From assembly GCF_029633825.1 (NCBI RefSeq), contig NZ_CP090640.1:434001-498000 (forward strand): a stretch of 64,000 nt of DNA. The letters are read 5' to 3'. The stretch is from Burkholderia contaminans (lineage in GTDB: Bacteria > Pseudomonadota > Gammaproteobacteria > Burkholderiales > Burkholderiaceae). Positions 13,971-42,394 of the stretch are shown piece by piece. The translations under genes were made by a program, and so were the position numbers. Position 1 is the first letter of the stretch. The number at the start of each line of letters is the position of its first letter. The notes under the pieces are model-generated. The model worked only from the letters and a program-made list of their open reading frames with translations, was not told the DNA's origin and ran no database searches.

Positions 13971-16202
13971 TCAGAACTCAGGCGGCAAATCCCGGGTATC
14001 GGGAGGGGCGTCAAAGCCGAGAAGGACCCGAATGAGACGAAGTCTCGGCGTGTCAGCAGGAAGCAATTCGCGCAAATACCCATCAAGCTCCTGTCGGTGG
14101 CCTGACTGTAATCTCAACCTCTGCGTGAACAGCGCGAGAGCAAACTCGGCGGCCGCCTCCCCTTGACGCTTGTCGTATTGAGCGAAGATGCTCTTGAGCA
14201 GGTCGAGCATGAACTGGCTTGCGTTATGCTCCTTCGAATAGTCGAGCTCCCCTACACGCGCGCACCTCAGCAATGCCGCCTGAATGACGCCGTCGTTATA
14301 CCGCGTGAAGTTCTCCGGGTCCAGAATCACATGCTGGAACGCATCGGTCGACAATCGTAGAGCTTGGTCCTTGAACTTGCCCTCCCTGGCGTTCTGCAGT
14401 ATCGCCCCTGCCATGGCGACGACGCCCGACGTTGTATCCGCCGTGCCGGGGTCGTATGCAAAGTCCCAGAACGCGAAGTCGAGCCGTAGCCTCATCGGTT
14501 CTGTCAGGTCTGAATTGAGCCCGATAAACGTCCGGGCATTCATCCCCATCGCTGTGCCATCGAGCTGGGTGAATCGCTCCTCGTACTCGGCACCAAACTC
14601 GCCCGGGGCATTCTGCAGCAGTCTTGCTTCATCTGCGAACGAGTCCCGGAGGCCTGCGCCAACGGCTATGTGCGCAAACCGATGGACTTCGATGTTGGCC
14701 TCATTAGCGGAGTACTTCAGATTTCCCGTCAACACCCTTATCTGACTTGTCGTTTCAGCAACCTGCGCGCCAATCAGATAGGTACGTGCTCCCTCGTGGA
14801 GGTCCCTGAGGTCACGGCTTATTGATAGCAGGCGCGTGCCTCTACCTGCCACAGCTGCCACGATGAGAAGGCCGGCGTCTCTTCCGATTTCACCGGCGCG
14901 CACCTCTATTTCGGCTTCGCTGATGACAGGCACCTGGTCGAGCCTCATCATGATTTCGGTCAGGCGCTGCGCGCACTCCAGAGCGAGGGCCCGGGACGCC
15001 TCATCGTTTTGATGGATGATTGCGTGGACCGACGCCGGCGTCCTCTGCCTAAGCATCCGATACAGCCACACATCGAAGCCAGGGGCTCCGAGAAGCTTCG
15101 TTCCGTCCACATAAAGGGGCCGGATTTTCCCGTTGGCGGTGCTGCGGCCCAGAACACCGAGCGCGCCATTGCCCACGAACTTGCAGCAGAAGGCTTCTGC
15201 GTTCACCTCTTTGTGCTCTTTCCGTAGAAGCACCGACTTCGGCATCAGGTCGGCCGGCGCAAACCGCTCTCCCACAATCGGCAAATCTCTTAGATGCTGC
15301 GCCGCCTGCTCCACGCCAGAGCCTTGAGGCCGTGGCAGCGCAAAAAGAGCGTTCTCCCGCCCTTTCGCGTCCTCGAGCGTCAGGAGCGTCACCACTTCCT
15401 CTTGATGGCAACGCGTTCGCTGTCGCCAATCTCTTTCAAGATTCAGCGACGACGACGCTGATATCAGGCAGAAGGACGTGCCGGAGAGCGGCGTGTCGAC
15501 ATGTTCGATACCGTCGTGCGAATGAAAGCTCACAACTCGAGGCTGCGACGCGCCGTAGAGCGTGCAATACATATCGCGCAGCGCATACGCAACACTCGCG
15601 ATACCCATCGAGTCGATGTATATGACGTCGAGGTCCCCCTTGCACATGTCAGCTCGCTTTTTCAGCTTATGCAACAAAGCGAACGCAAGGAACTGTACGC
15701 CCTCCACTTCCGTCAATGCTTCTTCCGTTCGCAGGAACAGAGTCGAACGCTTCTCCGACGGCTTGACGAACGTGAAGCCGGGCGGCGCCGTGACGAGCAC
15801 GTGATGCGAGGAGAACAGCTTCTCGAGTCCTGCGGCCCGAATCGCATGTGTTCTGTCGCGAAGCATCGAATCCAGTCGCGTGACCTGGTTTCGCAGTTGC
15901 TCGTGTAACCGGATGGTGCCTTCACGGTCGAAAACACAGATGCACAGGCAAACCTTTGTGGAGGTCCTGGCGGCCGCCTGCTGCAGCACGGGTTCGTCGA
16001 AGCGCAGTTTAATTGCGTCGGCTTCGGTCGAGGAACAGACAATCGCGACTACGTCGGGCGCGTTGACCGTCTGCAAGCCATACTCAATCGCATCCGCGAG
16101 ATACGTGTCGTGCAACTTGCCCGGAGGTTTGAAGAGAAAGTGAAAATTCCGGATGGGACCCGCTACAGGCAAGGCACAATCGAACGTGAAAAATCCCTTC
16201 AT
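13971..16202 (-). CDS. Unknown 743-residue partner of the GHKL ATPase
   Basis: I do not recognise a named family. The start at 16202 (MKGFFTFDCALPVAGP) overlaps the stop of the ATPase gene by 4 nt (ATGA), so both are made together. Two stretches look like phosphoribosyltransferase-type Rossmann turns: DVIYIDSMGIASVAYALRD with a later LISASSS (about residues 185-230), and LLIVAAVAGRGTRLLSISRD (about 435-460). The C-terminal third is helical and ends with RLRLIRVLLGFDAPPD. A C-terminal adaptor or scaffold role is possible. The phosphoribosyltransferase resemblance is weak and seen by eye only. Confidence 0.75.
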   Translation of the reverse strand: MKGFFTFDCALPVAGPIRNFHFLFKPPGKLHDTYLADAIEYGLQTVNAPDVVAIVCSSTEADAIKLRFDEPVLQQAAARTSTKVCLCICVFDREGTIRLHEQLRNQVTRLDSMLRDRTHAIRAAGLEKLFSSHHVLVTAPPGFTFVKPSEKRSTLFLRTEEALTEVEGVQFLAFALLHKLKKRADMCKGDLDVIYIDSMGIASVAYALRDMYCTLYGASQPRVVSFHSHDGIEHVDTPLSGTSFCLISASSSLNLERDWRQRTRCHQEEVVTLLTLEDAKGRENALFALPRPQGSGVEQAAQHLRDLPIVGERFAPADLMPKSVLLRKEHKEVNAEAFCCKFVGNGALGVLGRSTANGKIRPLYVDGTKLLGAPGFDVWLYRMLRQRTPASVHAIIHQNDEASRALALECAQRLTEIMMRLDQVPVISEAEIEVRAGEIGRDAGLLIVAAVAGRGTRLLSISRDLRDLHEGARTYLIGAQVAETTSQIRVLTGNLKYSANEANIEVHRFAHIAVGAGLRDSFADEARLLQNAPGEFGAEYEERFTQLDGTAMGMNARTFIGLNSDLTEPMRLRLDFAFWDFAYDPGTADTTSGVVAMAGAILQNAREGKFKDQALRLSTDAFQHVILDPENFTRYNDGVIQAALLRCARVGELDYSKEHNASQFMLDLLKSIFAQYDKRQGEAAAEFALALFTQRLRLQSGHRQELDGYLRELLPADTPRLRLIRVLLGFDAPPDTRDLPPEF

Positions 16203-17386
16203 AGCAGGACCTTCGTCGCAGGCACCACGATTGAATAACAGGCGCCAGCTGCCATGGGAAGCTCCGGCCGGTCCTTGAGCCAGTGCTTCGGTTCGAACGA
16301 CACCTGCTCTTTCGGTACAGAAAAATCTTGGGTCAAACAGACCCTTCCGGTCCGCAGACGAAGGTATGCGTTCAGTTGCTGCAAGGTTTGCAAGACGTGA
16401 GAAAGGCCGCCGCCGCTGCCCGCGGTCGTCTTTGTGGTCGCATGTAGCTCGAAACACTTCCGAACGAGTGACACCTCTTCATCGATTGAGACACTCTGAA
16501 TCTCCTCACCAGCTTGACCATGGCGGGAAAGCCAGCGACGCGCGAGCCCGGGCCCGGTGTCGACGACGGTTAGCTCCAGCAGAGATGTCTGCTTGCTGGC
16601 CTCCCGTTTCCCTTCGGCGTTGGCATACTTACGCCGATTGGCAATGTTGTGCATCAGGAAGAACGCGAGCGGCGGGTCTTCCTCGCCAAGGTGGTCGGCC
16701 GCGTCCTTGGCCTCGTACGAAATAAACTTGGCCATGACAGCACGCAAGCTCTTCACGTAGGGCCTGCCTTGCTCGTCCGTGGTTGCGTGTTCGTCTGTGT
16801 TGCGGAAAAGTTCGTAGAGGAGAGTTCCCAGAGCGACGCGCGAAGCCTCCGTCATCTTCTGGCCGGCAGTCGGCGCGCACGCAGCAATCAAACGGGAGGT
16901 CAGGTTTACGAAGTCGTCTCGCGACCGGACAGCGCCGACCTCTGGCCGAGAATACAGTGGGATAAGGAATTCATTCTTCGCGCGAGCGAAGCAACCCAGA
17001 AATGCGCCTCGCCCGTGCATCGTGCCGCGGAAGTTGCCGTTCTGCATTGCTTCAATTCGAGGAACTGCGTTCGCCAACGCTTCGCGGGTAGACAACGGTT
17101 CGTCAGCGCCAGTCTCGATGATTTCGGAGAAGTAGGCAGCAGCCATGCCGTGCGGCTCTTTTGCCAAGGCCTCCTGCGCATCCGTCGAGCCTCTACCGTA
17201 AGGCCTCAAGGTCGGGTGCTCGATGGTGCGTGACCACTCGGCGAGAAATTGCATGAGCGAACCCGGCACGCCAACGTTCCCGCCGAACCTCAAACTTGTC
17301 TCGAGCCGCAAAGCTGGACTCTCCGATAGCAGCTCGTACGCGCCCTCGATGTCCCTGAGGCTGGTCGCACTGGGAAATGTAATCAT
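16199..17386 (-). CDS. GHKL (Hsp90-like) ATPase
   Basis: The 395-residue protein carries the Bergerat-fold motifs: N-box ELFRNTDEH (E192, N196), G1 box VVDTGPGL (274-281) and G2 box GSGGGL (323-328). It lacks a histidine-kinase H-box or transmembrane segments, so it is not an ordinary sensor kinase. About 180 residues of unrecognised sequence precede the ATPase. It is translationally coupled to the 743-residue gene and lies in a defence-rich element. A two-gene anti-phage system is a reasonable guess, but no known system is matched with certainty. Confidence 0.8.
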   Translation of the reverse strand: MITFPSATSLRDIEGAYELLSESPALRLETSLRFGGNVGVPGSLMQFLAEWSRTIEHPTLRPYGRGSTDAQEALAKEPHGMAAAYFSEIIETGADEPLSTREALANAVPRIEAMQNGNFRGTMHGRGAFLGCFARAKNEFLIPLYSRPEVGAVRSRDDFVNLTSRLIAACAPTAGQKMTEASRVALGTLLYELFRNTDEHATTDEQGRPYVKSLRAVMAKFISYEAKDAADHLGEEDPPLAFFLMHNIANRRKYANAEGKREASKQTSLLELTVVDTGPGLARRWLSRHGQAGEEIQSVSIDEEVSLVRKCFELHATTKTTAGSGGGLSHVLQTLQQLNAYLRLRTGRVCLTQDFSVPKEQVSFEPKHWLKDRPELPMAAGACYSIVVPATKVLL

Positions 17387-19206: not shown

Positions 19207-19435
19207 GTTTTTTAAACCTACAAATCGGGTAATCGGCGAGCGGACGCACCAAACGTCGGCTCATGGCTTCCCGCGTGCGCTTGCAAGCCAACTCGGCGAC
19301 GGTTGGCACGTCACTACGGGAAGAGAGGATATGCGCTCAACGCGGGCTCAATTGCTCACGCACCTTGCGTACCTCATCCTAGTCGCGTTGAATAAGGCAC
19401 GCTTCAATCTGCCCGAGACAACGAAGCAATCCCCT

Positions 19436-20230
19436 CTAGAAGATGTCCCCCGCACCTTCGGTGCCCTCCATGTGGCGACAGAGGCCCGGCGACAGGTAGC
19501 CCAATTTAGGACTCGGCCCGGTCGTGCACCGGTTGCCGTCGTACTCGACATAAATCGGCGGCGGCGTCGTGTCGTTCCACGAGGTAAGGAGCGCCATAAA
19601 AATTCCGACAGCAGTCGAGGCGAGAATGCCGTTCGGCCAGACGACTTGAGGGCGTCCCCCGGCAGCGCCGTAACGCGCATTCTCTGCGGCCAGAGCAGCG
19701 TCAGTAATGAACCCCATGCACCGCATGCACGGCTGGCCCGGCAGCGAAGCGATGACCTGACCGCTGATGAAGTAGCGCCCTTCTTCGCCGTGGACGTCCA
19801 TTCCGACGTCGATGTACGGAATGCGAAAGCGACGCGCGAAACGTTCGAGTTCGTCGCGCGCCCCCATCGTGTCGACACATCCGAAGATGTAGTCGACCTG
19901 TTTCAGGTCGTCGAGCGCGAGATTCCACGGGCCATCGTGTTTGACGATTTCCGTTTCAGGGCTGACCGCCGCTACGCGCGCGCTGATGACATCGACCTTT
20001 CGCGCCTCTGCCTGCGCTTCGGCATAGGTCAGCCCGACCATGCGGTTGCGGTTGGAGTCTTCCGCAAAGTCACCGTCAACCAGGACGAGCTTACCGACGC
20101 CAATATGCGCCAATTGCTGCGACACATGCGAGCCACCACCGCACAATCCAATGACTGCTACGGTCGTGTTCTTGATGGTCGCTTCCGACGTTTCCCCGAG
20201 GAAGCTTTGACGACTGTGTCGGTTGTCCAT
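19436..20230 (-). CDS. E1-like (ThiF-family) ubiquitin-activating enzyme
   Basis: The product has 264 residues from the ATG at 20230 (MDNRHSRQSFLGE), with GCGGAG 7 nt upstream. The adenylation motifs are clear: AVIGLCGGGSHVSQQLAHIG (25-44) and VDGDFAEDSNRNR (51-63), then FGCVDTMGARDELERFARR and IPYIDVGMDV. A CMRC pair (168-171) is a likely zinc ligand. Such enzymes adenylate a ubiquitin-like C-terminus. The gene is last in the order Ubl, E2-like, JAMM, E1. The JAMM frame upstream continues about 140 nt into it, an unusually long overlap. Confidence 0.9.
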   Translation of the reverse strand: MDNRHSRQSFLGETSEATIKNTTVAVIGLCGGGSHVSQQLAHIGVGKLVLVDGDFAEDSNRNRMVGLTYAEAQAEARKVDVISARVAAVSPETEIVKHDGPWNLALDDLKQVDYIFGCVDTMGARDELERFARRFRIPYIDVGMDVHGEEGRYFISGQVIASLPGQPCMRCMGFITDAALAAENARYGAAGGRPQVVWPNGILASTAVGIFMALLTSWNDTTPPPIYVEYDGNRCTTGPSPKLGYLSPGLCRHMEGTEGAGDIF

Positions 20231-20723
20231 GATGCAACTCCGCTTGCGAATGAGGTTTTTGCAGGTATACGCCGGCCCTTGCGAGTTGTGTCTGTCCCGG
20301 CCCCAGGAAGACCGCGCTCGCGGAATCGAGGCTGAAGACAATCGCACCATGAGGTAGCTCAGGGCGAACATTGACAAAATCAGGGATGAAACGCTTGTTT
20401 TCGTGTACATCTACGGCGCTGAAGCCGGGCGTGCCGCGGTGGTCGTGCCGATGCACGTGAAAAATGCTCACGGGGCTCATGTGCGCCGCTGCGCGCAAGC
20501 GACGAAAAGCGCTCGAAGAAACGCACGCCCCGACCCTCGGATTGTTCTCGTATTCACCGTCCGGAATCGCGATGTATCGCTGAGCCGTGATGGTCCACGC
20601 GCCGTTTGCCATCGTCGATTCGCAGACGAGGAACCCCACCCGTTCCGCGGCGAAGGCATGTGGCCGGTCAAGGTCGCGGTGAAGTTCTGCGACCAGCGTC
20701 GGGCTAATCGTGATGGATGTCAT
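20091..20723 (-). CDS. JAB/JAMM-type peptidase (deubiquitinase-like)
   Basis: The 210-residue frame contains AERVGFLVC with the catalytic Glu (E27), then FHVHRHDHRGTPGFSAVDVHEN. This gives the JAMM metal ligands H89-x-H91 and S102-x-x-D105, with a His-rich loop longer than usual. JAMM peptidases trim or remove ubiquitin-like tails. The start overlaps the E2-like stop by 4 nt (ATGA). The last ~45 residues overlap the E1 coding region in another frame and do not look like part of the fold, so the true C-terminus may be earlier or frameshifted. Confidence 0.85.
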   Translation of the reverse strand: MTSITISPTLVAELHRDLDRPHAFAAERVGFLVCESTMANGAWTITAQRYIAIPDGEYENNPRVGACVSSSAFRRLRAAAHMSPVSIFHVHRHDHRGTPGFSAVDVHENKRFIPDFVNVRPELPHGAIVFSLDSASAVFLGPGQTQLARAGVYLQKPHSQAELHHGQPTQSSKLPRGNVGSDHQEHDRSSHWIVRWWLACVAAIGAYWRR

Positions 20724-21076
20724 TTAAGCGCCACCATGTGTGCACCCAGCATGTCCAGCAAAGGCAGCGCCGACGGAACGCCTTGCCAGGACCAGACGTG
20801 CCATACGCGACCAGCAATAACGCGCTCGGTCCAGTTTGCCGGCTTGCCGACAATTTGCTCGCGCTCTGCAATCCGTTGCGACAGGTAGAGGCGGCTCGTA
20901 TAGCCGTTGGCCCCATTCGGTGCCAGGAGCGCATCGAGGACATAGGTCTTGTCCCCGACCTGGAGCCGTAGTGCGGGCAGATGAACGAATACCTCCGGTC
21001 CATCCATGAAGACCTTGGCGCCAGGGACTACGGCCAGCAACGGCCGTAGTCGTTCGTCGTCGAAGCCCCCCATCAC
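20720..21076 (-). CDS. E2/UBC-like protein lacking cysteine
   Basis: The 118-residue protein ends with ERVIAGRVWHVWSWQGVPSA and LLDMLGAHMVALK. Together with the NGYTSRLYLSQRI segment this resembles bacterial E2-family proteins found beside Ubl and JAMM genes. The whole sequence has no cysteine, so it cannot use the classical E2 thioester. It is joined by ATGA overlaps to the Ubl gene upstream and the JAMM gene downstream. The E2 assignment rests on the C-terminal pattern and on context. Confidence 0.6.
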   Translation of the reverse strand: MMGGFDDERLRPLLAVVPGAKVFMDGPEVFVHLPALRLQVGDKTYVLDALLAPNGANGYTSRLYLSQRIAEREQIVGKPANWTERVIAGRVWHVWSWQGVPSALPLLDMLGAHMVALK

Positions 21077-21465
21077 GACGAGCTCCCGGTGCGGACTGCG
21101 CTGAGAAACTCTTCTCCGCCGACGACGTGAATGTGCGAGTTATCGTCGAGAGGTGGAAAGTCGCCGGGGCCGAGAACCTTTTCGAGCACCTTGTCGGCTG
21201 GAACACCTAGCTTCTTCTTCAGCTCTGCAACCAGATACGTGCCCGCCTCAATCTCGACGGGACGGTTGTCGATTTTGACGGTAACGAGGTGCGGCGCCGG
21301 GTGGTGTTCGTGATGGCCGTGATGGGCGTGGTGCTCGTGGTGGCCATTCGGTTCACGGTACACATGCTGCTCGCCGTGGCGTTCATGGTGCGGTAGGGAG
21401 CGGCCCGGCTGCTCGCCGCGGTCGCCGTGGGCGTGTTCGCCCGGGGTTTGCTCAGGGTCGTGCAT
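21073..21465 (-). CDS. Ubiquitin-like (multiubiquitin-type) protein with His-rich N-terminus
   Basis: The product has 130 residues from the ATG at 21465, preceded by AGAGG at a good distance. Residues 1-58 are rich in His, Glu and Gly (His-rich 25-58, for example HHEHHAHHGHHEHH). Residues 59-125 look like a beta-grasp Ubl: LVTVKIDNRPVEIEAGTYLV, then LKKKLGVPADKVLEKV and a final VVGGEEFLSAV. The C-terminus is RTGSSS: one Gly followed by a short tail that a JAMM peptidase could remove. It is the first gene of the operon. Confidence 0.8.
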   Translation of the reverse strand: MHDPEQTPGEHAHGDRGEQPGRSLPHHERHGEQHVYREPNGHHEHHAHHGHHEHHPAPHLVTVKIDNRPVEIEAGTYLVAELKKKLGVPADKVLEKVLGPGDFPPLDDNSHIHVVGGEEFLSAVRTGSSS

Positions 21466-21489
21466 GGTTACCTCTAAAGTTTGCATCAA

Positions 21490-21512
21490 TGACATCAAAC
21501 CATTCGATGTCA
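21490..21512. promoter_or_regulatory. Inverted repeat between the Ubl operon and the XRE gene
   Basis: TGACATC and GATGTCA, exact inverted copies, are separated by 9 bp just upstream of the Ubl gene. Further TGTCA/TGACA half-sites occur at 21540, 21580 and 21597. This is a plausible operator cluster for the divergent XRE regulator; binding is inferred. Confidence 0.5.
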
Positions 21513-21596
21513 ACAGGAGTGTCCTCCAGAGGAAGCCAAATGTCAATGCGAATGACCTTTGAACCGAAAGTCAGCCACCTTGACAAGTCATCAATA

Positions 21597-21624
21597 TTGA
21601 CATATACGCGGCGCGAGTTATACT
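21597..21624 (+). promoter_or_regulatory. Sigma-70 promoter of the XRE gene, probably leaderless
   Basis: A -35 TTGACA (21597-21602) and a -10 TATACT (21619-21624) are 16 bp apart. The start codon at 21632 lies 7 nt after the -10 box, where transcription should begin. No ribosome binding site is seen, so the mRNA is likely leaderless. Confidence 0.65.
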
Positions 21625-21631
21625 GCCGAAC

Positions 21632-21982
21632 ATGGACAAGTTCTATGAAGAGTTCGGGCGGGCGCTGCGGGAGCGCCGAATTAAAGCCAACCTGACGCAG
21701 GATGACGTGGCGTCGAAGGTCGGGCTTGGACGCACGTCAGTCACAAATATCGAGAAGGGACGACAGCAGGTCTCGTTGCACATGCTTTATCAACTGGCTG
21801 ATGCCGTTGACGCAGAACCCTCGTCTCTCCTACCTCCAAGAAGTGAGACCAAGGAAAAGTCGGAGCTTCCTGCTGAGCTGGAGAGTTCACTGGCCAAACT
21901 TGGCGACGAGACAGAAAGACAATGGGCTAGAGAATTCCTAGATTCGCCCGAGGTTCTCGCCTCTCTCGAAGAAAAGCGCTAA
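21632..21982 (+). CDS. XRE-family transcriptional regulator
   Basis: The 116-residue protein has an N-terminal helix-turn-helix (LRERRIKANLTQDDVASKVG followed by GRTSVTNIEKGRQQVSLHML), then a charged helical tail. Such regulators repress their own and neighbouring promoters. It is followed after 3 nt by an ImmA/IrrE-type metallopeptidase gene, the usual repressor/anti-repressor pair of mobile elements. It is divergent from the ubiquitin-like operon, its most likely target. Confidence 0.9.
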   Translation: MDKFYEEFGRALRERRIKANLTQDDVASKVGLGRTSVTNIEKGRQQVSLHMLYQLADAVDAEPSSLLPPRSETKEKSELPAELESSLAKLGDETERQWAREFLDSPEVLASLEEKR

Positions 21983-21985
21983 AAC

Positions 21986-22504
21986 ATGACAAACCCGGAA
22001 AATAAAGCACGAGAGACACTTCAGACCGCTGGTGTGACTGAAGCACCGGTCGATGTCGAACTTGTCGCCAACCACTTGGGATGCAAGGTCATGTTTCAGA
22101 CCTTGAAATCAGACTTGTCGGGACTCTTGGTAAATCAGCCAGGAAAGTGCCTGATTGGAGTCAACTCTCATCAGAGTAAGACTCGCCAACGATTTACCAT
22201 TGCCCACGAGCTCGGGCATCTCGTCTTACAGCACAAAGGAGAGATGTTCGTTGACGGGACGGTCCTTCGAAGAGACGAGAACAGTGGCCGAGCAGTCGAC
22301 CCACAGGAAATTGCTGCCAACCAGTTTGCGGCCGCCCTGTTGATGCCTTCCGATTGGGTTTATAAGAAGTTAGCTGAGAACCGGAAACAGTCGCCCGACA
22401 GCTCTGCCGAAGAAGTGACAACTGCACTTGCCGCCCAATTTGCAGTCAGCCCTCAAGCCATGGGTATCCGGTTGGCAAATCTGGGGTGCCTTATTCCTGA
22501 GTAA
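21986..22504 (+). CDS. ImmA/IrrE family metallopeptidase
   Basis: The 172-residue protein has the zinc site H74-ELG-H78 in FTIAHELGHLVLQH and the downstream EIAANQFAAALLMP motif of the family. It begins 3 nt after the XRE stop. These enzymes cleave or inactivate the partner XRE repressor in response to a signal such as DNA damage, which would derepress the divergent operon. The target is inferred from position. Confidence 0.9.
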   Translation: MTNPENKARETLQTAGVTEAPVDVELVANHLGCKVMFQTLKSDLSGLLVNQPGKCLIGVNSHQSKTRQRFTIAHELGHLVLQHKGEMFVDGTVLRRDENSGRAVDPQEIAANQFAAALLMPSDWVYKKLAENRKQSPDSSAEEVTTALAAQFAVSPQAMGIRLANLGCLIPE

Positions 22505-22636
22505 AGGTAGACGCGCCGCGCAAGGCCGTCTGAGGTCGTTCCACTGTGCGCATCGAAACATCCCCGCGACCGCCGGGACGACCTCCCCGTGAGGTTGTCG
22601 GCTCATATTGAGCTTGCTAACTGTCAGAGAGCCTTC

Positions 22637-23563
22637 TCAATCGACCGACGCCCACTCATAAACATCGCGTGCCAGTGGGCCCGGGTCATCATGAGCTGAT
22701 ACTACGAAGCCCTGTTGCTCAAGGCTCCAGCTTTGCTCGCCAAGGATATTTTCAATTCTCTCGCGGTCTAGCGCGGGCATGCTGTCGGTTGCCGGCGTCA
22801 TGACGAAAAGCCCCAGGCCTCGGTCCTGAAGCCGGTTCACCCGAGCATAGGTCGTCAGGTCTCTCGAGGCGCGCAAGAAATTCAGCTCAACGCTAGTCGG
22901 AGTCTTGTACACAGCAGAGATGACGCTCCCGGCCTTGCCAGGAGGTGCGAGATTGAAATCGAGCCAGTGAGACTGGCCGGTCGATTCATCGAGAAGCGCT
23001 CGTTGTGGTTCGGTACTAATTCTCTCAAACGATAATCCAGCGATTTTCTTCAACTCGTCATCAACAAGACGGCGCACCGCGGCGTTGTCGAGCGTGATGA
23101 ACTCACGGGTCTTTCGTTCCTCACGCGGAACAAGAGGCACAACGTCGTAATAGAGCCGACTCAGAACAGCATCCACAGACACGCCCGAAGTAGCCCACTG
23201 ACTTCCGATTGAGATGGCGTCCGTCTCGAATGGTACGTCTTCAAGACCGGCTGCATTCTTCTGCGCACGCAGCATGCCCTGCTCGGCCGCTTCCATGAGT
23301 TCGCGAATCTGACCAATGTCGTCCCGGCCATAGATACATTCAAACTTCGACAGGTCATCAAGCAAGCGGAAGCTGAACGGTCCGCCAGGTGTGCCGACAA
23401 TGACTCCCACGGTGTAGCGTTGGGGCGCGAAAGCATCTGGTTGCAATTCGATGGTCGCCCAGACGCCTTCAAATTCGGGTGCAGGCACGGCGAGCGCGTG
23501 GCGTCTGATATGCGCAAGAGGGTCCAAGCCCGTCGACATGAACAAGGTCCTCATACGATGCAC
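22637..23563 (-). CDS. Uncharacterised partner of the HipA-like kinase
   Basis: The protein has 308 residues; an ATG at 23539 is a possible shorter start. The part starting EFEGVWATIELQPD and continuing RYTVGVIVGTPGGPFSFRLL loosely resembles the DUF3037 proteins often encoded next to HipA-like kinases. The rest is unrecognised. It overlaps the end of the kinase gene by 13 nt, which argues for a functional pair. No membrane or secretion signal is seen. Confidence 0.7.
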   Translation of the reverse strand: MHRMRTLFMSTGLDPLAHIRRHALAVPAPEFEGVWATIELQPDAFAPQRYTVGVIVGTPGGPFSFRLLDDLSKFECIYGRDDIGQIRELMEAAEQGMLRAQKNAAGLEDVPFETDAISIGSQWATSGVSVDAVLSRLYYDVVPLVPREERKTREFITLDNAAVRRLVDDELKKIAGLSFERISTEPQRALLDESTGQSHWLDFNLAPPGKAGSVISAVYKTPTSVELNFLRASRDLTTYARVNRLQDRGLGLFVMTPATDSMPALDRERIENILGEQSWSLEQQGFVVSAHDDPGPLARDVYEWASVD

Positions 23564-24357
23564 CCCAATTCATTGGCTAGCCAATCGCGTTGAGCGCGTT
23601 GTCCCAGAAACTGCAGAACGTTTGCTGTCAGCGTTGCGGCTTCAGTCGAGTCGGAAATAACCTTCGAAATGAATTGCTCCAGCGATGGAGTAGCCTGCAC
23701 GAGAGCCTGTTCATGCTGCAAGGATGCCACCGCCATGGACGCTTCAAACTTGGTATAGCCCGCTTGTTTAAGCAGACTTCGGGCCTCCCTTCGCAAACTA
23801 TTGTGTGCATATTGGAGGCCACCTGCTACCCAGATTAGCGTGTAGAGAATGAGCTCGTTGTCGATGGGGATATAGTCTCCACCAGACGTCCGCAGAAAAT
23901 TCCCGGTATGGCGGTCCTGGTTTTCGACCCAGTGGTCGAATGCGGCGATTCTGGCGATGTCGCGGTGCTTGAAGGCACTTGCCTTTCGAGCGGCCTGGAG
24001 CCACTTCCATCGCGCAGTGATGTGCTTGCCGGGAACGGCTGACGTGCAAAAGGCTGGTACCTCTTTGTACTTCATCCAGTGCTGGTCCAGCGACATGCTC
24101 TGACGCAGCCTGCCAATGGGCAGCAGAACTACAGCTGCGAACTCCGGCCGAGGCAGGTCGAGGGCAGCGGCTATCATCCATGCGATGCTCTCAGTGAGCA
24201 CCATGGGGTTGCCAAGCGGGGCCGCTTTGACAAAGCATTTATGCAAATGTCCGTTTGCGTCGGCGATGACCGCCTGATGGGTAGTGTGGTTCTGCCCTTT
24301 GTTGGCAGCCGCGCCCCTGAACTCCCGCCAAGCATCCGCCGCCAGAATTGGAATCAT
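23551..24357 (-). CDS. HipA-like protein kinase
   Basis: The 268-residue protein has the HipA/PI3K-like catalytic loop VENQDRHTGNFL (D148, N153) and the metal-binding Asp in YIPIDNELI (D166). A Lys in CFVKAAP (44) is the likely ATP-contacting residue. It lacks the N-terminal HipA couple domain, so it fits the short HipA_2 class rather than classical HipA toxins. It is the first gene of a two-gene unit. Confidence 0.8.
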   Translation of the reverse strand: MIPILAADAWREFRGAAANKGQNHTTHQAVIADANGHLHKCFVKAAPLGNPMVLTESIAWMIAAALDLPRPEFAAVVLLPIGRLRQSMSLDQHWMKYKEVPAFCTSAVPGKHITARWKWLQAARKASAFKHRDIARIAAFDHWVENQDRHTGNFLRTSGGDYIPIDNELILYTLIWVAGGLQYAHNSLRREARSLLKQAGYTKFEASMAVASLQHEQALVQATPSLEQFISKVISDSTEAATLTANVLQFLGQRAQRDWLANELGCIV

Positions 24358-24780
24358 ATTATGCCTCAGTCTTTTTTGTTCTTCTCTGCCGATTACGGCC
24401 GCTGCCGCCGACTCCTTATAGCTGGCCGCCCCTCACGCCTACTTCGCACTGCGCCCATTAGTGCGCAACTACGGCTCTGATGGAAGCGCAACGCTCGATT
24501 CGCCTGACCGCTCCAAATTGTACACCCCCTTATCAGCAGTGGCATTCGAGCAGACTGACGGCATTGCCGCATGTCCCGGTTCCTACCTGGGGCAGTGAGA
24601 CGTTAGATACAGGCTCCTGGCTGCGCTGCTTTGCGTTGCCCCCCCCCGTTGCATACATTTGGTCACGCGGCGTGAAGGCCAGGCTTGACTCTGATTCTCG
24701 CGCTCGTACCGGACGGCTTGAAAGGCGCCCATCCCTCCTGTAATTTCTCTTGCTTTCGATACCCAGATTCACGTTATCCG
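24358..24780. other. Intergenic region without a recognised gene
   Basis: This 423-bp gap separates the divergent HipA-like kinase and the HEPN-like gene, so it should hold both promoters. Short open frames exist but none has protein-like sequence. A run of seven or more C residues lies near 24641. Confidence 0.6.
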
Positions 24781-25800
24781 ATGACAAGCGCGACCGAAAA
24801 GTTCGACCCAGACAAGCTCAAAAGCAATGCCCTGACGTCTATCCGGCTCGGCGTCGAGGATTTCACGCGCAGCCAGTTGGCAGAAGGCGGAGACCCCGAC
24901 CGAGCGCTGTCAGCTTTGCGCAATCTGTTTGCGGGAATCTTGTTGCTATTCAAGTATCGGATTGCGACCGAGGCCGGAAGCGCCGCAGAAGGTTACGAAC
25001 TGATTTTCAAGACGGGGGAGATTCTTCCGCAGCCTGACGGCATGGGCGGTATCGAGTGGCAACCGATGAAATTCGGCAACACGACGATTGACGTACCGGA
25101 TATCAAAAAGCGCTTCGATGCATTTGGCATCGTAACTGACTGGAAGGTTATCGAGGCGCTACAAAAAGAACGCAACAACGCGGAACACCTTCATCCCCAG
25201 AACGCGGCCGGGGTAATCGGAAAATTTCTCTCCGACACGTTCCCGGTATTGAGCACGTTCATTCAGGACGAGCTAGATTCCGCGCCGGCTACGCTTCTCG
25301 GCGAGACCTGGACAACGATGCTGAAGCATCACGATTTCTACCAGGCTCAGGCTGCCGTATGTACCGCAGCTTGGGCAGGCCTGAACGTTCCAGACGACCT
25401 CTTGCCGGTGGTGCCTGACATGCAATGCGAGGCGTGCGGGTCGTCATTGCTGAAGCCGTCCGGCGACGAAGAAGAGAGCAGCGACCTTGAAAGCGGTGAG
25501 GTTACGTACATTTGCGTCGGCTGCGCACATCGCGCACTCATCGTGCCCTTGCTCGAAGAAACCCTTATCGAATTCGTCGGCGGCTACGACCCCTTCAGCG
25601 GCGAAGAGCCGCCCACCGCGGAATGCCCGGAATGCCAACACGCGACGTTTGTACATGCAAAGGGAAAGTGCCTTTGGTGCGGCATGCAGCTCGCCCCTGG
25701 AGGGTGCTCGCGTTGCGGGAACGTTCTTACCTTGGATGATTACGACAATTCGCTGTGCGGATATTGTCAGTATCAGGCCGACAAATATCGTGACGCCTAA
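24781..25800 (+). CDS. Putative HEPN-type RNase with C-terminal zinc ribbons
   Basis: The 339-residue protein has a helical N-terminal half with LQKERNNAEHLHPQ. This contains R131-N-N-A-E-H136, the RX4H signature of HEPN RNases. The C-terminal half has CEAC, CVGC, CPEC, CLWC, CSRC and CGYC pairs, i.e. probably three zinc ribbons that could bind nucleic acid. It stands alone between a divergent HipA-like gene and a non-coding stretch. The family as a whole is not one I can name; HEPN-Zn fusion is by motif only. Confidence 0.75.
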   Translation: MTSATEKFDPDKLKSNALTSIRLGVEDFTRSQLAEGGDPDRALSALRNLFAGILLLFKYRIATEAGSAAEGYELIFKTGEILPQPDGMGGIEWQPMKFGNTTIDVPDIKKRFDAFGIVTDWKVIEALQKERNNAEHLHPQNAAGVIGKFLSDTFPVLSTFIQDELDSAPATLLGETWTTMLKHHDFYQAQAAVCTAAWAGLNVPDDLLPVVPDMQCEACGSSLLKPSGDEEESSDLESGEVTYICVGCAHRALIVPLLEETLIEFVGGYDPFSGEEPPTAECPECQHATFVHAKGKCLWCGMQLAPGGCSRCGNVLTLDDYDNSLCGYCQYQADKYRDA

Positions 25801-35412: not shown

Positions 35413-36546
35413 CTACTCTTGGTCTACGAAACGCCCGTAGGTCTGCAGGGCGGGCAATAGTTGCTCATCCGCGTACCCGCACCCAGTCGATGCGATTGGC
35501 TTCTGGCCTTGTTTGTCCGCGGCCTCGGGGGGGTGACCTCCGCCGGCCTTCAGCACCGCAAGCATCGGCTCATAGCCCGGCACCCAGGCCGTCAGCCCCG
35601 TAAAGGTCGTCCGCATGGCAGCGAGTATGCGCATTCCTGCGAAGTCGAGGTCTCCCCAGAAGTACGACGGCATCTCTCGCCGGCCAAACAACCAACCTTC
35701 AAACTTTGCACGTAAGTCCCGTTCGAGACCGCCGCCCGCGGCGTAAAACAGCGAGCACCCCTCCATGGTGCGCAGCCGCTGTGCGCTCCCTTTGAAGCCG
35801 GACGCATAGACCAAAGCCAACTCATCGAAAACTCCACCGGGCGCGCGCATTGCGCGTTCGAAGCTCACCGAATTCTCAATGAAGAGGACTCCACGGTGAC
35901 CGCAGGCAGGCAAGAACACGTGCAATTGGATGGGAGACTCTGGGAATGGGCAATCGTCCATACCGAGAATGGCCGCAACCAATCCTTGACGCTTGTCGAG
36001 GACCTTGGACATCCCCCAGAACAACTGCGACGACACCTCACGCAGCAGCATCGATTTCTCCGCCAACCCCGGAAGCCGGTTCAACTGCTCCACGACCTCC
36101 GCCATCGTGCGACCCGGGATATCGATGCAATATTCTGAGACAAGGTGCTTTACCGTATCGCTTGCTAGCAAGCCAGACGACACGGCATCGCGCCAGCGCT
36201 CAGCGGACGACTTCACCCTTTCGTGCCGGCCGACTGCCGCACGCAGTTCTCGCTGGTCGACCACAGTCACACGCGGCGACGATGCGTAACCGGACCGACT
36301 TTTGAGCGCGGTTTCTGGCTTCACAGCTAGCCATCCGCATCGCACCATCGCGACAACATGCTCCCAAAGGTGTTCCTTCTGTGACTCTACTGACGACATA
36401 TAAAGCGCTGGCCAAGTGCGCTCGTCGAGCTGGACTGATTTCGCTTTAGCGCTTCCTCTCTGCTCGGCCGCGTCTAACCGGTCAACAAGCATGTTGAGCA
36501 ATTCTTGCACTGGCATGGACTTCAGCCAAAGAGACGTGCCGCTCAT
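35413..36546 (-). CDS. jetD: Wadjet nuclease subunit JetD
   Basis: The 377-residue protein has an N-terminal DUF3322-type region and a C-terminal Toprim-like DUF2220 domain with YFWGDLDFAGMRILAAMR, the metal-binding DxD site that cuts DNA. In Wadjet systems JetD cleaves circular plasmids once the JetABC loop extruder stalls. It overlaps the jetC stop by 4 nt. The order jetA-B-C-D is the type I arrangement. Confidence 0.93.
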   Translation of the reverse strand: MSGTSLWLKSMPVQELLNMLVDRLDAAEQRGSAKAKSVQLDERTWPALYMSSVESQKEHLWEHVVAMVRCGWLAVKPETALKSRSGYASSPRVTVVDQRELRAAVGRHERVKSSAERWRDAVSSGLLASDTVKHLVSEYCIDIPGRTMAEVVEQLNRLPGLAEKSMLLREVSSQLFWGMSKVLDKRQGLVAAILGMDDCPFPESPIQLHVFLPACGHRGVLFIENSVSFERAMRAPGGVFDELALVYASGFKGSAQRLRTMEGCSLFYAAGGGLERDLRAKFEGWLFGRREMPSYFWGDLDFAGMRILAAMRTTFTGLTAWVPGYEPMLAVLKAGGGHPPEAADKQGQKPIASTGCGYADEQLLPALQTYGRFVDQE

Positions 36547-39500
36547 TTAAGCGCCTCCGCCTGCTGTGCGGCCTCGGCGGCGCCAAACGCCAGCTCGGCC
36601 TGAGCACGGGCCGCCGCCCGCTGCTTTTCCCAGAGCTCTCGCATCTTGTCCTTCTTGAAGATGCGCTCGTCGTACTCGAGGATGAAGTCGAGTTCGCCGT
36701 TAGCATCAACAGGAACGCGGCTATAGCTGTACTCCCGGTCGAACTCGGGCCGTAAGCCGCCAGCGCCTCGTGTCGGCATCGCACTGACAACCTGAATATC
36801 GAGGCTATCGCGTAGGTACTGCAGCACAGCGCGAGCGCGAGGTTCATCCATCGTCGAGAACGACTCGTCACTAACGAGCATCTTCAGGCTGGGTCCCTTG
36901 TCGAACAACTTTAGCCGGTTCGTCACCACGGCCGCGCGAACAATGTAAGCCGGCGTCTCAAGCTGTCCACCAGACCCCGTACCCCATGTTGAAAGCGCAA
37001 TGCGTCCCCCACTGTCTGAATCATTCCAAATTTCGTAGCGCCTGTAGTTTCGATAGTCGGCAATGCGCAAGAGCTCCCGCCCCGCTCTCTCTTGGTCTGA
37101 GTCGAGCAGGAGCTTCACCAGGCGGTCGCGTACCTCTACGTGCTTTGGCGTTAGCTCCGTCTCTCCGAACAGGTCGACCGTTTCAACTGAGTCCGCAAGT
37201 TCGGTGACGGCTGAGAAAAAGCTGTAGTACTCCTGGAACTCCGGCTCCCACTTCGACCAGTCGATGCTGAAGCGGTCCGTGCCGAATTTAAGCCGTTCCA
37301 ACTCCATATTAAGTTGCCGTAGCAGTCGGACGCCATCATCCACCTTACTTTTGATTTCGACGCAAAACTGCTTGGTGAACACGTCATGGAAAGACCGCTC
37401 CGCCTCTTCCACCTTGGCCCTATTGTTGTAGAGGCCGATGCCCTCAAGCTCGCTGCGGAGCGCTCCCACCGCGCGGCCGAGCGCAACAAGGGGGCCATAG
37501 TACGGGTCGAAGGTGGTGGTGTCGTGAAGATGAGGCAGCGCTGACTGGAAGCGCTCCTCTTGGCGCGCGTTCGCGTTGTACTCCGCAAGCATTTCCCGCA
37601 CATCACCCAGCAATTTGTCCGGCTGGGTGCGCAGCGTGTTGAGCCGCACCTGAACGGAATGCACGTCAAACCTCCGGGATTTGAGCAGCCCTTCTACTTC
37701 CTCGGCAATAACCGTATAGGTTTTCTCTGGGTTTGTTTCGCACATCTGCCCGAGCCGACGAATCTGGTCTTCACGCTCCCGAAATCGCGCGTCTCGGCCT
37801 CCATTGATGCGCTCAATGGCGCCTTGGGAGTCCGTGATACGCTGACGCGCCAGGGTAATCTCTCTATTTGCCGCGGTGATTTCGGCATCGTGCCCAGCGA
37901 TGAGCAGTTCCAGCTTCTCTCGCTCTGCTCGCAACTGTTCCACCTCGGTGAGGTCCAACTGCGCAAGGGTGCGCCGAGTGCTGTCGATTTCTCCCGCTGC
38001 TTGGCCAAGCGGCACCGCATCGAAAACAGGTTCACGCAGGTTGCCAAGAAGCCGTTTAACGTTCGACAGCGTATCTTGCAGTTGCTCGAACTCTCGAATT
38101 TCTCGGTCTGCTTCATCGAGTTGCTCGATGGTAGCCCTCAGCGCCTGCTCGCGAGCTTTGCGTCCAAGAACAAGGTCCCGCCGCTCACCAACGAACATAG
38201 TGCGAGAACCACTTCCTTTGCCTTCCTTGGTCAACCCACGCGCGGTATCGCGCAGTTGCTCGGAGTCCCTGACCTTGACGACGGCGCCATACTGCTCGAT
38301 GAGATACGCGCGTGCAATGGGATGGTCAGTGCGGAGCTCGTGGATGATAGAGTCAGATGGCACACGACCGGCATCGGCACGCTGAAGACACCTTTTACCC
38401 TGGATGACCTTACAGCGCGAGCCCCATGAGTGAAGCAAATCGATAGTTCGTGCTTCCCACTCTGGCTTCACAATGAGATTGAAGCGGGCATTGTCCAAGT
38501 ACCCTTCGATGGCCTCCTGCCATTCGTCCGACACGGGTTCGACGAGGTCGCAGAGAACTTGGACGCCAGCTTCGGGCAAACACTCTCGAATGCGAGGAAG
38601 CGCCATGCGAGTGTCGCGATTGTAGTCGCTGGCGCCGCTCGCCAACAGCTCCTTGCGGTCAGCCAATTCCTTGCGCGCCTTACGAGTGGCTTCGACACGT
38701 TGCGTCAATTCCGACGTCTCGGAAGCGACAGCCATCAAGACACTATCTTCGGTCCCCACGAGATATGAGTGCAGCGCGCCGAGTCCCTCTTCCACACCGT
38801 CGAATGCAGGGGTCAATCGGAACAACTTCTCGACGTTAAGCTGCGTATCACTCGAGGCATCCAGGACAGCGCCCAAGAGACCGTCCAAGCGAGCAACGTC
38901 AGTCGATGCTGTAACTCGACCGACCGCATCAACCGACGCTTTGAGCTTGGGAAACTGCTCCGGAATGGGCTTCCGCAACAAACCCGTAGCCGCATTGACG
39001 ATTTGGGCGGCGGCTTGAAGCCCGGTATTGAGCTCAGCCAGCTTGCGCCGAGCTGCGGAATTGGCGAGCTCGAGCTGCTGGTCGAGGCGCTCTTTTTCGG
39101 CGTTGGCGGCAATGCCACTGAGCTTCGCTGCAATGTCGATGCGGCTCCGGTCCACGCCTGCTTTTAGTCGCTCCTCCGTCTTCACCTTTTGCTCGCACCG
39201 CCCTACTAGTGCTGAGTCATCGTTGATGCGCTTCTGCTCTTGGGCGATACGTTCATCGTCTGCCGCCACCAGCATCTTGGCCAGCAGCAAGTCATACTGC
39301 ACTTGCTCTTCAAAGGCCGACGCCGTTTGCGCAATGGCAGCCTTCAACCCTCGCAAGCGCCCAACAGTCGCCTCCAGTCGCTGCCCTTCTTGCTTCAGGT
39401 TCGTGACTTGGCGCATCAGGTCGCTGATGCGAGTGATGCTCTCATGCAACTGCTTGCCGTCATACTCCAGAATGTCATCGCGAACGAGGTCGTGGACCGA

Positions 39501-40175
39501 GCCAATTTTTTTGTAAGCAATTGACTGGCACCAAGCCTTCGCAGCGTTCTGGGCCTCATCCCAGGTAATCGAGATGCGCCCCCGGAAGCGCCCGTAGAGT
39601 GCGCAAAGATAGTCTCGCTTATGCCCGTCATAGGTCACCACCTTCGAATACCGAGCCTTCAACCGCTTTACGATTTCTTCGACGGCCACCCACTCGCTTT
39701 GCTCCGCGTCCTTTAGAAAATCGTCAACGGTGAGCGCAGCGTCGTCTACGATAACCAGTTCGAGTCGCTCCAGCTTCGGCACCCTGCGCTCCCCGACGCC
39801 GTCCACCTGTGCCGACGCGGCGACGAGCGCCGTAAAAGGCTTGGCCGAATCCTCATCGGGCCCGGGGCGGAACACGGCCGCCATATATCCTTGCGCGCCA
39901 TGGGGTCGAGAGAAACGACTGTACTCAGCACCGACGACAAATGACTCCAAGGTACGCTTGGACTTCCCGCTACGTTGCCCCTGCTGTACCTCTTCTTGGC
40001 CAGGGTTGTATGCGACGATACCCTGGTACGCGGCGGTCATGATGGTCTGGAGGCCATCGAGCATAGTGGACTTACCCGCGCCCGTCGGGCCGGTAAGGAG
40101 AGTCATGTTTCCAAGGTCATAGTCACCCGGCCGCAACTGCCCCCAGTTGACCAGAACGATGCGGTCGAGCTTCAC
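36543..40175 (-). CDS. jetC: Wadjet SMC-like ATPase JetC
   Basis: The 1210-residue SMC/MukB-like protein has Walker A GPTGAGKSTMLDGLQTIM (about 29-46), long coiled-coil arms, and a C-terminal head with the signature GTGSGGQLETP and Walker B LVSDESFSTMDEPRAR. With JetA (kleisin) and JetB it extrudes DNA loops by ATP hydrolysis. The 4-nt overlaps at both ends show coupled translation. Length and motifs match intact type I JetC. Confidence 0.96.
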   Translation of the reverse strand: MKLDRIVLVNWGQLRPGDYDLGNMTLLTGPTGAGKSTMLDGLQTIMTAAYQGIVAYNPGQEEVQQGQRSGKSKRTLESFVVGAEYSRFSRPHGAQGYMAAVFRPGPDEDSAKPFTALVAASAQVDGVGERRVPKLERLELVIVDDAALTVDDFLKDAEQSEWVAVEEIVKRLKARYSKVVTYDGHKRDYLCALYGRFRGRISITWDEAQNAAKAWCQSIAYKKIGSVHDLVRDDILEYDGKQLHESITRISDLMRQVTNLKQEGQRLEATVGRLRGLKAAIAQTASAFEEQVQYDLLLAKMLVAADDERIAQEQKRINDDSALVGRCEQKVKTEERLKAGVDRSRIDIAAKLSGIAANAEKERLDQQLELANSAARRKLAELNTGLQAAAQIVNAATGLLRKPIPEQFPKLKASVDAVGRVTASTDVARLDGLLGAVLDASSDTQLNVEKLFRLTPAFDGVEEGLGALHSYLVGTEDSVLMAVASETSELTQRVEATRKARKELADRKELLASGASDYNRDTRMALPRIRECLPEAGVQVLCDLVEPVSDEWQEAIEGYLDNARFNLIVKPEWEARTIDLLHSWGSRCKVIQGKRCLQRADAGRVPSDSIIHELRTDHPIARAYLIEQYGAVVKVRDSEQLRDTARGLTKEGKGSGSRTMFVGERRDLVLGRKAREQALRATIEQLDEADREIREFEQLQDTLSNVKRLLGNLREPVFDAVPLGQAAGEIDSTRRTLAQLDLTEVEQLRAEREKLELLIAGHDAEITAANREITLARQRITDSQGAIERINGGRDARFREREDQIRRLGQMCETNPEKTYTVIAEEVEGLLKSRRFDVHSVQVRLNTLRTQPDKLLGDVREMLAEYNANARQEERFQSALPHLHDTTTFDPYYGPLVALGRAVGALRSELEGIGLYNNRAKVEEAERSFHDVFTKQFCVEIKSKVDDGVRLLRQLNMELERLKFGTDRFSIDWSKWEPEFQEYYSFFSAVTELADSVETVDLFGETELTPKHVEVRDRLVKLLLDSDQERAGRELLRIADYRNYRRYEIWNDSDSGGRIALSTWGTGSGGQLETPAYIVRAAVVTNRLKLFDKGPSLKMLVSDESFSTMDEPRARAVLQYLRDSLDIQVVSAMPTRGAGGLRPEFDREYSYSRVPVDANGELDFILEYDERIFKKDKMRELWEKQRAAARAQAELAFGAAEAAQQAEALK

Positions 40176-40846
40176 GCGTCCTTCTCCTCAACGGTGGTCT
40201 GTTGTTCAAAGACGCCGTCTGCATCGAGTGCAGCGGTCAGTGCCTCGTTTGACACAACACCCAGGATGGTCGGGCGAATCGCAAGAAGCGCGTCCTCATC
40301 CAAGATAGAAAATTCTGGTGCATACCGGAGCAGCCTATGACGCCTAAGGTCGGCCAGGAGAGCCATCTTGTCGCCCATGCTCGACGGAAGCGCTCGCTTC
40401 AACTGCGTTTGCATCGTCGCGGCGATTTCCTCGAAGCTAACAAGCGCCTCGCCCCCCTGAGGCTGGATGTCACCCGTATTCAGCTTGTTCTGATAGAGGA
40501 ATCGCAAGGTAAGCGCCAGCGCGACGAAGTCCGGGGACACGCGCGCGCGTAAAGATGGAGTCGGTTCGTAAACGTCCGTCGGCAAGCCGTCTACGACCGC
40601 GCCGGCGGCGTACAGTCTGTAGAACTGGTTATCGCGGTCGTGATATAGGCGGAAACCGGCGAAATCGAGGTACTCATCCAACAAACTCTCAACGCGCCGA
40701 GCATCGTCATATAAAAGTTGTTCGGTTTTGTCTTCGTCGCGCACGATGACCCCGTAGGCCATCAGGCGAACCAAGATTTCCCGGAACCGCTCGCGCTTCA
40801 CATTCGCGATGGCGAGCTGTTCGTCAATTAGATTGGATAGGCTCAT
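40172..40846 (-). CDS. jetB: Wadjet subunit JetB (DUF4194)
   Basis: The 224-residue protein begins MSLSNLIDEQLAIANVKRER and has winged-helix character (LVRLMAYGVIVRDEDKTEQL-like, then LALTLRFLYQNKLNTGDIQP), as in the DUF4194/MukE-like subunit. It bridges JetA and JetC. It overlaps both neighbours by 4 nt. Confidence 0.92.
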   Translation of the reverse strand: MSLSNLIDEQLAIANVKRERFREILVRLMAYGVIVRDEDKTEQLLYDDARRVESLLDEYLDFAGFRLYHDRDNQFYRLYAAGAVVDGLPTDVYEPTPSLRARVSPDFVALALTLRFLYQNKLNTGDIQPQGGEALVSFEEIAATMQTQLKRALPSSMGDKMALLADLRRHRLLRYAPEFSILDEDALLAIRPTILGVVSNEALTAALDADGVFEQQTTVEEKDA

Positions 40847-42315: not shown

Positions 42316-42356
42316 CGTTGTTCCCTCGGATAGGGCTTCTGTGCAGTTTTGCGGTA

Positions 42357-42389
42357 TTATCTTGCAAGATAAATTATCATGCAAGATAA
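42357..42389. promoter_or_regulatory. Two 16-bp palindromes between jetA and the WYL regulator
   Basis: TTATCTTGCAAGATAA (42357-42372) is a perfect palindrome. TTATCATGCAAGATAA (42374-42389) differs by one base. They are 17 bp apart and end 6 bp before the WYL start codon. This is a tandem operator, very probably bound by the WYL regulator to control both divergent units. Confidence 0.85.
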
Positions 42390-42394
42390 CATTC

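Follow-up and report, generated by a model that had tools for sequence, protein, structure and literature searches.

A Bub-like operon in Burkholderia contaminans represents a sister branch of Bub with no universally conserved reactive cysteine in its E1 and E2-like proteins

We analysed a 64,000-nucleotide stretch of the Burkholderia contaminans genome (NCBI RefSeq GCF_029633825.1, contig NZ_CP090640.1, positions 434,001 to 498,000), hereafter the window. Open reading frame (ORF) calling of the window identified four tightly packed ORFs on the minus strand at 19436-21465, which encode a ubiquitin-like protein (Ubl), an E2-like protein, a JAMM peptidase and a ThiF-family E1 (Table 1). A first-pass annotation of this DNA had proposed that the four overlapping genes form a bacterial Ubl pathway. 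The gene content bears this out, and the pathway belongs with Bub and does not constitute a new kind. The operon is Bub-like and belongs to a sister branch of Bub, without being a member under every narrow definition of that system.

Table 1. Features of the operon and its surroundings in the window
Feature	Position	Strand	Description
Ubl (BubA-like)	21073..21465	-	130 aa; one beta-grasp-type domain and a His-rich N-terminal tail; ends TGSSS (G127-SSS)
His-rich tail of Ubl	21289..21465	-	18 His in 59 residues
E2-like (BubB-like)	20720..21073	-	predicted UBC/UEV fold, zero Cys; ATG at 21073 overlaps Ubl stop
JAMM peptidase (BubC-like)	20091..20723	-	210 aa; E27, H89/H91/H93, S102, D105 conserved
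JAMM/E1 overlap	20091..20230	-	140 nt, different frames; encodes JAMM tail with predicted C-terminal helix 191-209
E1 (BubD-like, ThiF family)	19436..20230	-	264 aa; adenylation residues, CxxC...CxH; Pfam ThiF 4.8e-25
Palindrome TGACATCAAACCATTCGATGTCA, candidate CapH operator	21490..21512	.	23 bp; conserved in L015; putative function
sigma-70-like promoter before capH	21597..21624	+	11/12 consensus; putative function
CapH-like HTH repressor	21632..21982	+	PADLOC capH 2e-11 (a generic HTH model scores better, 2.3e-12); dN/dS 0.047
CapP-like M78 (ImmA/IrrE) peptidase	21986..22504	+	PADLOC capP 3.3e-33; Pfam Peptidase_M78 3.3e-23
308-aa protein	22637..23563	-	without Pfam match; accompanies the cassette in L015, uncertain member; dN/dS 0.041
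HipA-like kinase	23551..24357	-	Pfam HipA_2 1.1e-7; accompanies the cassette in L015, uncertain member; dN/dS 0.066
PDC-S64 candidate defence gene	24685-25800	+	PADLOC 5e-40
PDC-M65A/B candidate defence pair	13971-17386	-	PADLOC 1.4e-25 and 3.2e-71
Wadjet type I JetABCD	35413-42780	-	PADLOC JetA 5.8e-241, JetB 4.9e-95, JetC 0, JetD 1.1e-164

The Ubl/E2 and E2/JAMM junctions are ATGA overlaps. Translation of the E2-like protein may begin at ATG 21073 or GTG 21076, giving a product of 117 or 118 aa. For E1, the start at 20230 was chosen because relatives begin at the M..RQSFLG site; the longer ORF to 20410 uses an upstream ATG. The 140-nt JAMM/E1 overlap is shared by the window, its counterpart in Paraburkholderia panacisoli DCY113 (L015) and locus L016, and is absent from the other 70 of 73 measured loci. 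The predicted JAMM tail helix in this overlap is Trp-rich and is encoded, out of frame, by the DNA of the E1 nucleotide-binding loop; a frameshift at this point would join JAMM and E1 into one protein, the arrangement seen in Citrobacter BubCD. With sequences of the window, L015 and L016 left out, profiles were searched against the 548 window ORFs and recovered the Ubl (1e-28), the E2-like protein (1.8e-30), the JAMM (1.4e-47) and the E1 (3.3e-112). Since the JAMM profile includes three JAMM-E1 fusion rows, it also matched the E1 ORF (1.7e-90). Between the window and P. panacisoli, dN/dS was 0.14 for the Ubl, 0.20 for the E2-like protein, 0.20 for the JAMM and 0.11 for E1. A chance origin of the ORFs is ruled out by their conservation and the leave-out profile matches.

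A genome scan with the E1 alignment returned 148 relatives, and 75 of the best 80 match all four genes. The loci compared here are the best 80 of the 148 relatives by two E1 patterns, together with ten regions from nine of ten plasmid records, and they are a selection and not a census. They supplied 77 distinct E2-like sequences of 86 found (L052 being partial), 82 of 89 for E1, 81 of 87 for JAMM and 78 of 84 for the Ubl. Relatives occur in Pseudomonadota, Acidobacteriota, Bacteroidota, Verrucomicrobiota, Planctomycetota, Ignavibacteriota and Thermodesulfobacteriota. Among the 80 genome loci, JAMM-E1 fusions occur in L049, L078 and L080, and the plasmid locus L013 has one too.

We then considered the E2-like protein, whose lack of cysteine had been singled out in the first-pass annotation. 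The protein does contain no Cys, yet this is not an outstanding feature: it is a family trait, and the partly consulted PMC1779556 stated in 2006 that in such operons the E2-like domain has no Cys and probably no activity. At the local Cys frequency, a 118-residue protein is free of Cys with a chance of about 0.25, which is unremarkable alone. The weight of the observation therefore lies in the 77 distinct E2 relatives, among which no conserved Cys column was found. Since the relatives share no such Cys, its loss in this genome only is ruled out, and the claim withstands the objection, raised at the outset, that a sequence error had removed a catalytic Cys still conserved in close relatives. 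Ser96 is invariant among the relatives. Structure comparison was in keeping with a UBC fold, as the predicted structure matches BubB and UEV/E2 domains; below BubB, the Foldseek ranking lists small heat-shock proteins and others with low probability. A sequence search of the PDB returned a single match for the E2-like protein, an antifreeze protein (E 0.65), and none for the JAMM, so the link of both proteins to Bub came from predicted folds. The Pfam model Prok-E2_E (PF14462) matched neither the window protein (E up to 1) nor four relatives (E up to 10), whereas it matched three Bub-type E2s at 7.3e-33 to 2.6e-48. This miss reflects a model cut-off and not a structural feature.

The catalytic sites of E1 and JAMM were compared in the same way. 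In a joint alignment of 20 E1s of this branch and 10 BubCD sequences, the adenylation residues D52, N60, R63, K78, D120 and D141 are present in 30/30 rows, and the site residues of the window E1 and JAMM are intact. Only three Cys columns reach 90% conservation across the 82 E1s, namely C168, C171 and C251 (81/82 each), accompanied by H253; these four residues are putative zinc ligands. The CxxC motif also occurs in 4/10 Bub-type E1s (L101-L104), and a zinc-type E1 is therefore not special to the window's branch. Tyr187 is found in 81/82 E1s. In the solved complex BubCD(D104A/Y370F)-BubB-BubA(155-229) (PDB 9eav), the authors altered an E1 Tyr. Locus L095, a close homologue, has Tyr at residue 370 and the JAMM-motif Asp at residue 104, so the 9eav numbering seems to carry over to it. 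The position of Tyr370 is Tyr in 10/10 Bub-type E1s, but Tyr187 of the window aligns two columns away. By sequence, the best PDB match of E1 was Citrobacter BubCD (1.2e-21), and its NCBIfam matches below cut-off included ThiF and MoeB models among others. The JAMM of one relative reached Pfam Prok-JAB below cut-off.

The Ubls were examined for their C-terminus, domain number and tail. The Gly and SSS at the end of the window Ubl had been reported as conspicuous; the ending is indeed present (Gly127), but it does not set this operon apart, as an exact G-x-S-S terminates 74/84 Ubls and this or a near form 83/84. Because the Ubls end in GxSS, trimming after Gly by JAMM would be expected to come first. 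The Pfam model Multi_ubiq matched the Ubls of L005 (9.8e-30), L007 (1.5e-24) and L012 (6.7e-20) and did not match the window Ubl alone at E up to 1. The N-terminal extension is at least 110 residues long in 60/84 Ubls and shorter than 45 in 16/84, some of the short ones being incomplete readings. On the E1 tree, the window falls in a starred clade of 12 rows, ten with a single Ubl and two without data. The single-Ubl label, set by length and, for the window, L015, L016, L026 and L079, by hand, changes 12 times on this tree compared with 18.1 times for shuffled labels, so Ubl architecture has changed more than once.

The reported His-rich N-terminal tail was confirmed and recurs in single-Ubl relatives. 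In 16 chosen single-Ubl relatives (L026, L092 and L093 left out), the tails contain 55 His in 488 residues (11.3%), and 15/16 lie above background. The corresponding share is 4.1% in the E1, E2 and JAMM proteins of the same loci and, for multi-Ubls, 2.3% over their first 25 residues. Between the window and L015, 44 of 59 tail residues and 69 of 71 domain residues are identical, and the tail holds 18 His in 59 residues in the window and 21 in 63 in L015. Because the tail diverges while its His content stays, the comparison suggests selection on composition. That the tail binds metal is a guess.

Divergently from the operon lie genes for a CapH-like repressor and a CapP-like peptidase, with a candidate operator between. 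The operator pattern occurs once in the window and in 0/100 shuffles; it was derived from the window and L015 sites, that is, from the sites that it finds. Iterated profiles were applied to the 83 loci with at least 1 kb of upstream sequence (window included; L012 and L013 excluded) over a 2-kb range. The results showed a divergent M78 gene in 51 loci and a divergent HTH gene in 48; both genes occurred in 42 of the 83 loci and neither in 22. M78 matches across all 89 loci numbered 57, and single-sequence searches gave a lower count, with both genes in 18/88. These frequencies fit the published figure of 219/544 Bub operons carrying CapW or CapH and CapP, taken from the portion of PMC13373217 consulted. 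Here, as in the known CapH/CapP regulators, the HTH and M78 genes adjoin a defence-type operon as a divergent pair, and no difference was established. On plasmids, tblastn identified 10 records with the JAMM and the identical 10 with the E2-like protein; where present, annotation reads multiubiquitin, hypothetical, hypothetical (or no gene) and ThiF. A divergent HTH and ImmA/IrrE pair is annotated in 5/9 plasmid records (L005, L007, L008, L010 and L014), L012 has a DUF955 gene and L006 is unannotated. In L009 and L011, toxin-antitoxin genes of the RES/Xre type occupy the place of CapH/CapP beside the operon.

Comparison with known systems placed the operon closest to Bub (Citrobacter BubA/BubB/BubCD; PDB 9ea4, 9ea5, 9ea8, 9eae and 9eav). 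The E2-like protein, JAMM and E1 of the window each match Bub best. The two share a Ubl (of multi-ubiquitin type by the relatives' profile), a JAB/JAMM peptidase, a ThiF-type E1, upstream regulators and a BubB-type UBC fold without a conserved Cys (9 Bub rows). In contrast, the window's branch has separate JAMM and E1 genes, a GxSS Ubl end, no DUF6527 companion, and E2 and JAMM proteins outside the Pfam models, including PF14462. The genes next downstream of the window E1 encode a 243-aa protein without Pfam match and then a DUF6710 protein, with no DUF6527 or metal-binding protein Y. The Citrobacter-type L095 combines a polyUbl fused to Prok-E2_E, a JAB fused to ThiF and then DUF6527, and its E1 lacks CxxC. 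This make-up matches row 6e of Iyer, given in the consulted part of PMC1779556 as polyUbl, inactive E2/RWD-like protein, JAB-E1 and metal-binding protein Y. The window resembles type 6e in its components and Cys-free E2-like protein, and the same portion of that source records a solo Ubl for one genome; the JAB-E1 fusion and protein Y are usual there, whereas the window has neither. In the Bub-type L101-L103, as in the window, the Ubl has one domain and the E2 is separate, and neither trait is thus distinctive. The window's branch may be among the 544 published Bub operons. Type II CBASS (Cap2/Cap3) also has an E1, an E2 and a JAB, and PADLOC E1-E2 models match the window E1 (best 6.9e-12); the window, by contrast, encodes E1 and E2 as separate proteins. 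In line with the first-pass annotation, no CD-NTase was seen with the operon: a PADLOC scan of 20 window proteins, among them the operon's neighbours, gave no match named as CD-NTase, and CBASS membership is ruled out on this ground.

Taken as a whole, we consider it probable that the locus is a Bub-like Ubl conjugation operon under control of the DNA-damage type. CapH would repress the operon from the shared intergenic region, and CapP activated by single-stranded DNA (ssDNA) would cleave CapH and allow expression, a control carried over from CapH/CapP work on other systems (as reported in the consulted part of PMC13373217). JAMM would trim the Ubl after Gly127, removing SSS, and E1 would adenylate the Gly of the trimmed Ubl. 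The E2-like protein would act as a UEV-type partner that positions Ubl and E1, with no classical thioester relay. The acyl group would pass from AMP straight to the target, or reach it by way of a short-lived ester on a conserved hydroxyl (E1 Tyr187 or E2 Ser96), and JAMM may also take the Ubl off targets. The scheme builds on the gene identities, the predicted folds, the conserved residues and the linkage established in this analysis, and the steps from trimming to removal follow family logic and the existence of solved Citrobacter Bub complexes. Its stronger form is a thioester-free branch, in which, with no universally conserved reactive Cys in E1 or E2, transfer uses hydroxyl chemistry (E1 Tyr187, E2 Ser96) or proceeds directly from the adenylate, and the His tail, metal-loaded or metal-sensing, adds a further control; this form we put forward tentatively, as possible and still rather doubtful. 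A literature search combining oxyester with bacterial Ubl returned nothing but a neddylation review.

Several observations weigh against conjugation without thioesters. E1 column 112 is Cys in 71/82 sequences, though Val in the window's own E1; Cys also fills columns 132 and 118 in 44 and 32 of 82, and 82/82 E1s have at least one Cys outside the three conserved columns; a lineage-specific thioester may therefore exist. In the Spirosoma locus L013, MBL-fold and DUF81 genes lie near E1, beyond a Tn3 transposase, and could hint at sulfur metabolism. This would suit a pathway without protein conjugation, in which the E1-Ubl pair makes a thiocarboxylate like ThiF-ThiS or MoeB-MoaD and the E2-like protein serves purely as a scaffold, as would the ThiF/MoeB core of E1 with its CxxC...CxH, the absence of a thioester Cys conserved at 90%, and the NCBIfam matches noted above. 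We regard it as unlikely: the Ubl gene encodes a GxSS tail past the Gly and stands alongside JAMM and E2-like genes, no annotated sulfur-transfer gene lies beside the operon in L005, L007-L011 or L014, and Bub, the closest solved system, is termed protein conjugation in the title of its paper. Non-covalent or polymer-type signalling, with the Ubl assembling or disassembling and no target attachment, is quite improbable as well. Multi-domain Ubl relatives are common (the long extensions given above) and the title of Gong 2025 names oligomerization of bacterial Ubls, but the window Ubl has a single domain and the E1 and JAMM sites are intact.

It appears very unlikely that the operon is an ordinary relative of the antiphage pathway Bil (bacterial ISG15-like) that has lost its E2 cysteine, even though the order Ubl-E2-JAB-E1 corresponds to the Bil A-B-C-D lettering, with the same four components, and the Ubl profile matches Ubl-BilA 8u38 at 3.3e-29. 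According to the consulted part of PMC11354881, Bil E1 and E2 use cysteines: the catalytic cysteine of BilB is Cys138, within a CEHH motif, and BilD carries two adenylation domains besides a Cys domain. The window has a single-ThiF E1 of 264 aa without a Cys domain and a Cys-free E2-like protein from a family lacking any conserved Cys, which rules out Bil membership, and its E2, JAMM and E1 all match Bub first. An artefact of annotation or sequencing, with a Cys lost or a frameshift between JAMM and E1, would fit the unusual 140-nt overlap; it is hardly credible, as three genomes carry the same overlap with E1s 94 and 64% identical and the E2 relatives have no conserved Cys.

The operon is patchily distributed, since the E2 query matched only its own genome among 65 of the genus and the JAMM query 3/299 genomes of the family, its own included; the nearest named operons are in Paraburkholderia. 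Loci L003 and L004 carry JAMMs 54 and 52% identical to that of the window, with no Ubl, E2 or E1 ORF seen within about 3.4 kb. On the Spirosoma plasmid pSLIN02 (L012, L013) the operon is broken, with Ubl and E2 apart from E1, which adjoins a Tn3 transposase and retains part of a JAMM. Genes for an ATP-binding protein and an S8 peptidase lie as a pair downstream of E1 on the L007 and L008 plasmids and near the Bub-type operon in L098. No E1 relative was confirmed on viral contigs, and phage records gave no JAMM match. A 5.2-kb block (19279-24466) is 87% identical to L015 and holds the HipA-like kinase gene, the 308-aa gene, capP, capH and the four operon genes, excluding the genes downstream of E1. 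Counted in 2-kb windows, GC content is 0.555-0.629 from 14 to 46 kb and 0.631-0.698 outside. This lower-GC block is a defence island, because it also holds JetABCD, PDC-M65A/B and PDC-S64. According to PMC12687455 (consulted in part), systems of this type, among them Bub, seem to be directed mainly against phages, whereas the portion of PMC13373217 considered here presents anti-phage action as not shown for Bub.

In textbook teaching, ubiquitin-type transfer is a cysteine relay. What remains is a widely distributed branch that the models used here did not recognise and that has no universally conserved reactive Cys in E1 or E2. It also brings to the Bub kind families of E2 and JAMM which went unrecognised by Pfam and NCBIfam in the window. 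The branch comprises at least 75 compact four-gene operons, some with a single small Ubl, and across them no universally conserved Cys could serve such a relay. Because these operons are compact and encode four small proteins, how an acyl adenylate might pass to a target without thioesters becomes a directly testable question, and the single-Ubl version is simple and suited to biochemistry.
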